Positions 13,034-14,793 of a stretch of 64,000 nucleotides of DNA are shown here, piece by piece; the first letter of the stretch is position 1; each line of letters starts with the position of its first letter. The stretch is from Fodinibius sediminis (GTDB lineage Bacteria; Bacteroidota; Rhodothermia; Balneolales; Balneolaceae), in the NCBI RefSeq assembly GCF_900182555.1, contig NZ_FXTH01000017.1, positions 1 to 64,000 on the forward strand, written 5' to 3'. The position numbers and the translations under genes are program-made. Below the pieces are notes generated by a model, which searched no databases, was not told the origin of the DNA, and worked only from the letters and a program-made list of their open reading frames with translations.

Positions 13034-13624
13034 TCAATGCGGGGAGACCACTTCAAAGCCTATCTGATCAGGCAAATCTTTAACTTTATGGCCGGGAGTT
13101 ATGCCCTTTGTAGCCTTCAATACGAGGAAATCGCCCGCGGCAGCCCCCGTAAAAACGATCCCGAACAGCAGCAGGTAGGCACTGCCCATCCATAACCCCG
13201 CTATGGAGGGGATGATCCCAAGGAGCAAACCGGGCATTACGGTCCCGGCCCGGTACGACCGGATGGAAATCTTTTCCCTTAAATGGACGTAGGGAATAAA
13301 GGGCTTTTCTATATAGCCAAATTTAATGGCCCTGCATCCTTTTCTGGCAACAAGTATGAAAGTGAGCGCATGGATGAGTTCATGTAGAATCATGCCGGCG
13401 AACAGACCGATCATGATAAAGAAATATATTTTTGCAAAAATCCATATATACGAGAGGAGCCCGTCATTCAAGAACACCTGTACCAGGCTTTTAACCTGGT
13501 CGAACAGTTCCGATCCCCAGATTATCATAAACGGCACTCCTATTACAATGGCATTGTATATAGTGAATGTTTTGGCAAAGGCCGATATTTGTTCATTGGA
13601 AATGACAATTTTTCGATTATTCAT
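13034..13624 (-). CDS. DUF3267-type membrane zinc metalloprotease
   Basis: This 196-residue protein has four hydrophobic segments (about residues 23-38, 62-80, 128-146 and 148-168) and the zinc motif HELIHAL near residue 81, at the end of the second segment. HExxH in the membrane followed by GYIEKPFIPYVHLREKISIR fits DUF3267, a site-2-protease-like family. It is the last gene of an operon that begins with two double-glycine leader peptides. That context suggests a role in processing, maturing or giving immunity to those peptides, which is inference. It is separated from the peptide genes by a strong hairpin. Confidence 0.8.
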   Translation of the reverse strand: MNNRKIVISNEQISAFAKTFTIYNAIVIGVPFMIIWGSELFDQVKSLVQVFLNDGLLSYIWIFAKIYFFIMIGLFAGMILHELIHALTFILVARKGCRAIKFGYIEKPFIPYVHLREKISIRSYRAGTVMPGLLLGIIPSIAGLWMGSAYLLLFGIVFTGAAAGDFLVLKATKGITPGHKVKDLPDQIGFEVVSPH

Positions 13625-13642
13625 AGTACGCTGGTTTTAGGT

Positions 13643-13679
13643 AATCCGGGGTTGCCATGAAATACCACAACCCCGGATT
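13643..13679 (-). terminator. Perfect 11-bp hairpin between peptide genes and protease gene
   Basis: AATCCGGGGTT and AACCCCGGATT are perfect inverted arms around a 15-base loop. On the - strand it lies just after the second peptide's stop codon and before the DUF3267 start. There is no long T-run, so it may be a leaky terminator or an RNA stabiliser that keeps peptide mRNA more abundant than protease mRNA. Confidence 0.65.
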
Positions 13680-13684
13680 GTTTA

Positions 13685-13903
13685 TTAATTTGTCATCCAT
13701 TTAACCCCATAATAAATGGCCACGCCCACGAGTACTCCAGCCCCAATTGCTGCAAGGCCTCCGCCTGCTGCAGCAGCTATGGCAGCGCCACCGCTTAAGG
13801 CGCCCCCCTTGTAACTGAACCTTTCTTCCCTATCCAATTCTTTGACATCAAATTTGGAAACATCATCTAATGCCATTCGTTTATTTATACTGAAAGTATT
13901 CAT
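13685..13903 (-). CDS. Double-glycine leader peptide, second bacteriocin-like precursor
   Basis: This 72-residue peptide has a charged leader (MNTFSINKRMALDDVSKFDV, then KELDREERFSYKGG) ending in GG, followed by a Gly/Ala-rich core ALSGGAAIAAAAGGGLAAIG and AGVLVGVAIYYGVKWMTN. The core has GxxxG-like spacing and a basic-aromatic end, as in class IIb two-peptide bacteriocins. Expected cleavage is after KGG by a C39-type peptidase transporter, none of which is in the window. It follows the first peptide gene by 30 bases. Confidence 0.7.
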   Translation of the reverse strand: MNTFSINKRMALDDVSKFDVKELDREERFSYKGGALSGGAAIAAAAGGGLAAIGAGVLVGVAIYYGVKWMTN

Positions 13904-13933
13904 TTTACCATTGCTTTTATGATGAAGAAATAA

Positions 13934-14122
13934 TTAGTCACTTGCAGAAGCGGCTGCTACTCCGGCTCCTATACCTGCTATAAATAACGCGCCTGCGGCA
14001 GTGGCTACCTGCGTAGCTGTATAGGTAACCCCCAAAATAGTCAGCGCTACAAATCCCCCTTCAATTTGTTCTAATGTTTGATCATCTATTTCTACCAATC
14101 CCATTTCATGTACATTATCCAT
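13934..14122 (-). CDS. Double-glycine leader peptide, first bacteriocin-like precursor
   Basis: This 62-residue peptide has a classical leader MDNVHEMGLVEIDDQTLEQI followed by EGG, with the conserved L..L..I.GG spacing, then a hydrophobic core FVALTILGVTYTATQVATAA and GALFIAGIGAGVAAASASD that contains GxxxG. Ribosome site AAGGAGATATATT sits just before the ATG, one of the strongest in the region. Paired with the next peptide it resembles a two-peptide class IIb bacteriocin. It could instead be a signalling peptide or a RiPP precursor; no modifying enzyme is adjacent apart from DUF3267. Confidence 0.75.
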   Translation of the reverse strand: MDNVHEMGLVEIDDQTLEQIEGGFVALTILGVTYTATQVATAAGALFIAGIGAGVAAASASD

Positions 14123-14793
14123 AATATATCTCCTTTTTTAATTTGGGTTCATGAAGTCATCAAGAATGGCTTCATGAAGAACTTACCAGCCGCCACTGAA
14201 CAAATAAATACAATGGATAGAATTTATTAAATTTCTTCCATCTTAATTTGATAGGTTCCCAAAATTGACAATCACCTTCCTTTACACAAATTGTTTTGTC
14301 ATGTGTGATTATGATTATATCCCATAGTTAAAAAAATAAATGAAAGGGCTGAATGATAATCTATTAAAGTTTTTGGACTCATAGCAACGCATGAATCCAG
14401 CCGCATCCATTTTAAGATCAACAGCTACCTCTGTATTTTAACATCGCTGAACCTATTACGGTGCCGGCCCAGAGAGTGTATGTTTAGACATTTTAGTGCC
14501 GGCAAGGAAAGTAAGAACATGACTGAAATCGTATCACCGGGGGGTGTCCCGGCCGCGTATAGCCATCAGGCAATCCCGCGAGTGAAGCCTGACACCCCGG
14601 ATCCAGCTCCGTTGCTCTGCCACCGAAGCCTCCCCCCCTTCCGATTCTTGCTTTGGCGGAACACCTGCTGCCGTTATATTATATTACCCTACTGGAATCT
14701 ACGCTGTACCTACCCGGGCCAGATCATTTCCGGGTTCTAAACCCATGAGGCTGCTGAAACCGTTATCATTTCCAAAATAAAGATGTTCATCCC
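14123..14793. other. Divergent gap upstream of the peptide operon
   Basis: The left part (14123-14350) is AT-rich and should hold the peptide-operon promoter, reading leftward. It includes the paired TTCATGAA boxes at 14148-14178. The right part has no convincing gene; CTGCTGCCGTTATATTATAT near 14665 resembles the worn cassette cores elsewhere. Confidence 0.5.
14148..14178 (-). promoter_or_regulatory. Paired TTCATGAA palindromes upstream of the peptide operon
   Basis: TTCATGAA, itself a perfect palindrome, occurs at 14148-14155 and 14171-14178, 23 bases apart. Extended by one base each, they become inverted arms TTCATGAAG/CTTCATGAA around a 13-base loop. They lie 26-56 bases before the first peptide's start, so they could be a two-site operator or a 5' leader hairpin. 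Confidence 0.45.

Follow-up and report, generated by a model that had tools for sequence, protein, structure and literature searches.

The window analysed here is a stretch of 64,000 nucleotides from Fodinibius sediminis (contig NZ_FXTH01000017.1, positions 1 to 64,000; C17 among the contigs of this genome). It carries a cassette of two genes for double-glycine precursor peptides, p1 and p2, and one for a membrane protein of the DUF3267 family, all on the minus strand, together with the following features.

13934..14122, minus strand: p1, first gene of the cassette, a 62-residue precursor (open reading frame call and translation)
13685..13903, minus strand: p2, a 72-residue precursor (open reading frame call and translation)
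13034..13624, minus strand: DUF3267 (PF11667) membrane metalloprotease of 196 residues with ILHELIHAL, the proposed immunity protein (PF11667 match)
14130..14133, minus strand: Shine-Dalgarno GGAG of p1 (sequence)
14195..14212, minus strand: operator-like 18-bp motif TGTATTTATTTGTTCAGT, 72 bp upstream of the p1 start, common to the exporter locus on contig C4 and two more peptide cassettes
14186..14278, minus strand: possible decayed 3' end of a hub HTH regulator gene, with the motif inside it (tblastn, weak)

The precursor p1 consists of a 23-residue double-glycine leader (...LEQIEGG) followed by a hydrophobic core of 39 residues (FVALT...), and the leader of p2 ends in SYKGG ahead of an Ala/Gly-rich core of 38 residues (ALSGG...). 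Neither peptide contains a cysteine. The open reading frames and the PF11667 match bear out the preliminary description of this DNA, which had placed two double-glycine precursors of 62 and 72 residues and a HELIHAL membrane protein at 13034-14178, and the span itself was correct. Its term "strong-RBS operon" is true of the first gene only, because p1 has a good Shine-Dalgarno sequence (AAAAAAGGAGATATATT-ATG) whereas sequence inspection found no obvious one ahead of p2 or the DUF3267 gene. The G+C content is ~0.40-0.45 across p1, p2 and the upstream stretch, and ~0.44-0.55 in the surroundings. In profile searches, p1 matched Bacteriocin_IIc at 23.1 bits (E 7e-5), below the cut-off of 27.1, p2 had no credible family match, and NCBIfam profiles gave sub-cut-off matches only across the cassette. 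PADLOC returned no defence-system match, and p1 had zero matches in plasmids.

The peptide pair and its homologues

Matches to p1 at E <= 0.1 were obtained in 5 of 97 related genomes, the own genome included; those in G007 are weak and correspond to other glycine-rich double-glycine peptides. Over its full length, p1 is 65% identical to the copies in G010 and G003 and 36% identical to that in G030. The homologues of p2 lie in the same operons as those of p1 and share 35-37% identity with it (BLASTP E 7e-4 against the G010 copy), and in the alignment the GG of p2 matches the NGG of its homologues. Between G010 and G003, dN and dS are 0.037 and 0.46 for p1, and 0.057 and 0.29 for p2, while the p1 core of the window compared with G010 gives a dS of 1.68 and a dN of 0.25. 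Judged from these sequence comparisons, p1 and p2 are coding genes under constraint, beyond chance open reading frames.

A search for the three-gene set in other genomes, as the preliminary description had proposed, recovered the same trio in G030, a member of the same family but of another genus, where genes for a membrane-fusion protein (MFP), a C39-ABC exporter, an HTH protein, p1, p2 and DUF3267 follow one another. In G010 and G003, MFP, C39-ABC and HTH genes likewise stand ahead of p1 and p2, with no DUF3267 at the locus. Here a small open frame separates p1 and p2, and an 82- or 103-residue membrane protein is encoded behind p2; G003 additionally has a CPBP gene behind this locus and a second peptide pair between the exporter/HTH genes and p1-p2. 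Further, a contig search of genomes with p1 gave one locus, in Fodinibius halophilus (NZ_JAALLS010000024.1), and the corresponding search with two DUF3267 proteins of the trio gave no match. Homologues of the glyoxalase flank of the cassette in three other members of the genus are no more than 44-46% identical, and no empty site was found among them.

Because homologous pairs follow MFP and C39-ABC exporters in G010, G003 and G030, the prediction that p1 and p2 form a two-peptide bacteriocin is well supported. The suggestion that the two peptides are class IIb partners thus stands on these homologous pairs, and two adjacent double-glycine precursor genes, as expected of class IIb, are present. 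The GxxxG argument originally offered for it is weak: each core has one GxxxG, a count that 40% and 89% of shuffles with the same composition also attain, so that the motif is not found beyond composition in the window cores. GxxxG is common among class IIb peptides and does not strictly define them.

An exporter on another contig and a shared upstream motif

The absence of a C39 transporter near the cassette, noted in the preliminary description, is true for the window; sought elsewhere, the genome has one C39 match only, on contig C4 (G000:C4). The run on C4 consists of MFP, C39-ABC, HTH, two double-glycine peptides and a CPBP protease (PF02517, E 6e-18). The leader of the first C4 peptide (MDNLDRMGLIEIKSETQIKTYGG, read from an inner Met) is similar to the p1 leader (MDNVHEMGLVEIDDQTLEQIEGG). 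A dedicated C39-ABC exporter lies in cis in G010, G003 and G030 and, in the own genome, solely on C4, from where it may serve the window cassette in trans.

Comparison of the 250 bp upstream of the peptide genes (the p1 upstreams against the C4 locus) revealed a word of 16-18 bp that the window shares with the C4 locus and G010; G003 and G030 have near copies of it. The window copy matches at 18/18 positions. As a whole the motif forms an imperfect dyad, which in the best cases reads CACTG-N12-CAGTG. A scan of the own genome yielded four sites with up to one mismatch, on C17 (the window), C4, C1 and C2, and all four precede two tandem double-glycine peptides. Its other ten sites differ at three positions; the control scan with the reversed pattern returned six. 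The cassettes found through the motif on C1 (L118:7603-8114) and C2 (L119:7381-7866), each with two tandem peptides bearing double-glycine leaders, had previously gone unnoticed. The C1 cassette seemingly lies beside a transporter gene related to one that adjoins a cassette detached from its exporter in G001 (L128).

Across 92 genomes of the family, TGTATTTATTTRTTCAGT with up to one mismatch occurs at 17 sites, compared with three for the reversed pattern. Two double-glycine peptides stand behind 8/8 exact sites and 1/9 one-mismatch sites, and at these nine sites the first peptide starts 57-81 bp downstream of the motif. The other eight of the nine one-mismatch sites have no such peptides behind them, G406 among them, where the contig ends 117 bp away and no judgement is possible. 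G007 and G030 have zero sites at up to one mismatch, G030 having a similar dyad, nor was a copy found ahead of the MFP gene on C4. A relaxed form of the motif gave 35 sites in 12 genomes against 14 for its control; the additions were mostly background, and this form was set aside.

At Balneolaceae hub loci, that is, those with the exporter, the motif and the 3' end of the HTH gene overlap. Ahead of the detached G001 cassette lies a pseudogene of the HTH regulator, interrupted by stop codons (tblastn E 1.8e-14) and followed by an intact motif. In the window, a possible HTH remnant at 14186-14278 (tblastn E 4e-4, from a very small database) contains one in-frame stop and is partly the motif itself; none of 500 motif-free shuffles reached 1e-3, and the remnant is weaker than the G001 pseudogene. 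The detached cassettes have probably budded from hubs, with the motif kept while the HTH copy decayed. As the motif is intact beside decayed HTH copies, action in trans by an intact hub regulator is indicated, and the hub HTH protein is a putative motif-binding regulator.

The DUF3267 protein and its likely role

The window protein belongs to PF11667 (61.2 bits, E 1.4e-16, against a curated cut-off of 27.1). Its H81-E82-x-x-H85 and distal D165, an S2P-like zincin site, are invariant in 20/20 aligned homologues. In searches with the AF2 model (pLDDT 93.6), Foldseek placed the site-2 protease 3b4r at rank 3 with a non-significant E of 0.66, and VIA-align placed it in the top row with a weak score near those of the next rows (Z 4.6, 106 aligned, rmsd 4.0).

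Among 392 Bacteroidota genomes, 41 matches in 36 genomes exceed the PF11667 cut-off, and their surroundings amount to 40 regions; two further genus-mates were scanned alongside. A C39 exporter lies within ~6 kb in 6 of the 40 regions (G431, G118, G370, G400, G384 and G030), where chance would give ~0.1 of 40, as calculated from ~302 C39 matches (hand sum) in the 392 genomes. Two adjacent double-glycine peptides are likewise present in six regions (G431, G118, G370, G400, G030 and the window; by eye). Three further regions, L072, L076 and L083, had one match each to the double-glycine expression and were set aside by eye as an opposite-strand open frame, an XRE-like HTH protein and a polar open frame. 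Such peptides are lacking in ~34 of the 40 regions, so most DUF3267 proteins have another function. The preliminary description would have given up its reading if the protease occurred mostly without peptides, which holds for the Pfam family as a whole but does not extend to the sublineage that includes the window protein.

In a tree of 35 DUF3267 proteins (13 of 48 matches, fragments or very divergent, were dropped), the seven cluster-linked proteins need 2 label changes, compared with a shuffled mean of 6.6 and 0/500 shuffles as low, a statistic that is inflated by relatedness, and the tree is midpoint-rooted on a long branch. Within it, the window protein clusters with those of G030 and G384 at 100/99; G384 has a C39 exporter and no recognisable peptide. 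All seven cluster-linked proteins have an extra segment of ~10-17 residues between the first two helices, which the other 13 aligned rows lack (by eye).

Two side observations concern the family. Genus-mates (L004, L009, L010, L015) have a second DUF3267 lineage with no peptide link, which adjoins ferritin-/nitroreductase-like genes (by eye) and has zero matches in the window genome. In other Bacteroidota families (L064, L066, L068), the peptide pair is separated from DUF3267 by a gene of ~190-207 codons, with no Pfam match in L066, where this was searched. A DUF2007-like protein of 81 residues is encoded behind DUF3267.

What the protease does for the cassette is best approached through its relatives. 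Among the cassettes of the own genome, the window has DUF3267, C4 has CPBP (E 6e-18), C2 has CPBP further behind the peptides (E 1.9e-7) and C1 is without a protease. Both G003 cassettes have CPBP, neither DUF3267 nor CPBP was seen at the p1-p2-exporter locus of G010, and no protease was found in either G001 cassette. Because the slot behind the peptides can be filled by either of two intramembrane protease families or by small membrane proteins, swappable immunity is favoured over required processing, and because G010 keeps the pair and the exporter without DUF3267 at the locus, processing is less likely than immunity. From the three roles initially considered, namely processing, immunity and reception, the balance has thus shifted towards immunity, and DUF3267 as a self-immunity protein rather than a peptide processor is the favoured reading. 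As the C1 and G001 cassettes have no protease, immunity there would come from other sources.

CPBP/Abi (CAAX) proteases were reportedly described in bacteriocin loci by Kjos in 2010. A later report, which cites that work, gives CAAX proteases at such loci as immunity, processing or receptor proteins, and one of them, SilX, as needed for activity without an immunity phenotype (PMC9298176). These loci resemble the window in having an intramembrane protease behind bacteriocin genes; DUF3267, however, is a different protease family.

The most serious alternative is that DUF3267 is a TmcP-like maturation protease that would cut p1 or p2 in the membrane before or after C39, with immunity coming from another source. 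The precedent is direct: TmcP, itself a DUF3267 protein, removes the TMcin leader in S. aureus, and an H68/D158 mutant accumulates the full-length precursor (PMC13252029). Further, the catalytic residues of the window protein are intact, and five of the seven cluster-linked loci have DUF3267, peptides and exporter in a single gene run. However, double-glycine leaders are C39 substrates and a C39 protein is present, G010 has p1, p2 and exporter with its single DUF3267 match elsewhere in the genome and of vertical lineage, and the sister cassettes carry unrelated CPBP proteases or none in the slot. We therefore regard a maturation role as possible, if on balance improbable. TMcin resembles the window in that an S2P-type membrane protease adjoins the gene of a membrane-active peptide, and differs in having two conserved Cys and a disulfide, where the window peptides are Cys-free, and in that TmcP removes the leader, a step expected of C39 in the window system (PMC13252029).

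A putative multi-cassette regulon and its alternatives

The explanation towards which we lean, at a little better than evenly balanced, is that the window trio is one spoke of a hub-and-spoke regulon of unmodified two-peptide bacteriocins, with DUF3267 providing self-immunity. It is favoured because the motif precedes tandem double-glycine peptides at the four own sites and at 8/8 exact sites in the family. In such a regulon, p1 and p2 would be made with their double-glycine leaders, and the C4 exporter with its membrane-fusion protein would recognise the leaders, cut after the GG and export both cores, which together would permeabilise the membranes of close competitors. A hub regulator, most simply the small HTH protein encoded beside the exporter, would act at 14195-14212 and so couple the window cassette to the hub and two further detached cassettes. 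DUF3267 in the inner membrane would inactivate inserted peptides or a docking protein, the role ascribed to the CPBP/Abi proteases that occupy the same slot in sister cassettes. Gene content, the exporters beside homologous pairs, the shared motif with its power to predict peptide pairs and the intact active site are observed; export in trans, HTH binding, killing by the peptides and immunity by DUF3267 are predicted from them. The arrangement suggests that several weapons are run through one exporter in these salt-loving bacteria.

If correct, these Balneolaceae would have a modular arsenal: two-peptide cassettes that are detached, in some cases bring a protection gene along, and share one exporter and one DNA motif. 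Given the one shared motif, cassettes could be discovered by it instead of by the homology of fast-changing peptides. To the one function characterised so far, that of the TMcin leader protease, DUF3267 would add a second candidate role. Why unrelated intramembrane proteases often adjoin pore-forming peptides would also become testable with the paired CPBP and DUF3267 cassettes of one genome.

The preliminary description knew of no characterised system with this composition. Close precedents do exist in Cdz, TMcin and the CAAX-protease bacteriocin loci; the same composition was not found described in the mainly open-access literature on DUF3267, Balneolaceae bacteriocins and Fodinibius peptides. 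Closest in composition are class IIb bacteriocins and Cdz. Like class IIb systems, the cassette has tandem double-glycine precursors with a membrane protein behind them and homologues behind a C39 exporter; unlike them, it comes from Balneolaceae, is detached from its exporter, has DUF3267 in the immunity slot and is known here from its genes. Bacteroidetocins share with it the Bacteroidota host, the double-glycine leaders and the double-glycine-peptidase ABC exporter. They are, however, single peptides with >=2 Cys, accompanied by a thiol oxidoreductase and no immunity gene, whereas the window encodes two Cys-free peptides (PMC6671954). The bacteriocin regulon of S. mutans similarly combines one exporter, NlmTE, with shared upstream BlpR boxes at several bacteriocin loci, but under a two-component system where a small HTH protein is the candidate here (PMC5295010).

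Cdz of Caulobacter suggests another reading, in which the peptides would aggregate on the producer surface as a contact-dependent glycine-zipper system, with no diffusion. Cdz comprises two small Gly/Ala-rich proteins of 60-151 residues with leaders ending in G[G/A/S], a type I exporter and an inner-membrane immunity protein, CdzI, predicted to have 3 TM segments and without obvious homologues, and CaaX proteases occur near Cdz-like loci (PMC5380434). The window precursors, at 62 and 72 residues with GG, fall within this description, and a membrane immunity candidate is present. Against it, each window core has a single GxxxG, a count within that of shuffles, so that neither has the extended GxxxGxxxG zipper, and the window cassette is detached where Cdz is one cluster. 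A Cdz-like system is therefore unlikely.

Double-glycine peptides and C39 exporters are used in quorum sensing too. The peptides could hence be pheromones and DUF3267 a receptor or signal-processing protease, a view with which the regulator gene at the hub would agree, as would the handling of a bacteriocin-regulon pheromone by NlmTE in S. mutans (PMC5295010). However, at 38-39 residues the cores are long, and they are very hydrophobic; the pairs diverge strongly between cassettes, four divergent pairs in one genome resemble a weapon repertoire, and no sensor kinase was noted within the cassette (by eye). Signalling thus appears improbable, more so than a Cdz-like system. That the cassette is a decaying relic, no longer made, as its detachment from the exporter and the possible decayed HTH remnant upstream might suggest, is very unlikely given the intact open reading frames, the Shine-Dalgarno sequence, the 18/18 motif and the p1 core values against G010 cited above.

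The hub regulators often share a further feature.

L019:11893-12201; L145-L174: HTH proteins of C39 hubs, with a C-terminal double-glycine and a short variable tail

The hub HTH family has matches in 96 of 392 genomes, with ~35 strong matches (E < 1e-10). By eye, a double-glycine-like C-terminal motif is present in 22 of the best 30 loci (19 GG, 3 AG), in forms such as ...KEISGG and ...SKEIFGG and followed by a variable tail in nearly all; the other eight of the best 30, G030 among them, are without it. For at least 22 of the best 30, a C39 match lies no more than 5 kb away (compared by eye). In the G030 gene (L020:7303-7620), an in-frame TAG stands just ahead of a conserved ELKKVSGG, the tail being cut off or read through. 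The tail motif looks like the end of a leader and could serve as a C39 cleavage site; no report of such an HTH regulator with a double-glycine tail was found in the literature.

Because of this C-terminal motif, the HTH regulator might itself be a substrate of the C39 exporter. The resulting idea of an export checkpoint, in which secretion load would set transcription or the tail would be an exported pheromone, is tentative and more apt to fail than to hold. A free exporter would cut or remove the regulator tail; with the exporter loaded by peptides, the regulator would stay whole and reset transcription of all cassettes, including that of the window. Secretion capacity would in this way be coupled to gene expression, much as with FlgM.

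Other peptides were observed near the exporters. In G010 (L030:12218-12391) and G001 (L133:5145-5321), the exporter genes are preceded by a gene for a short, acidic double-glycine peptide whose core holds a single Cys (TDTGV..D), a candidate pheromone. In G007 (L032:8190-8789), two unusual double-glycine peptides with repetitive Gly/Leu-rich cores stand ahead of the MFP and C39 genes.
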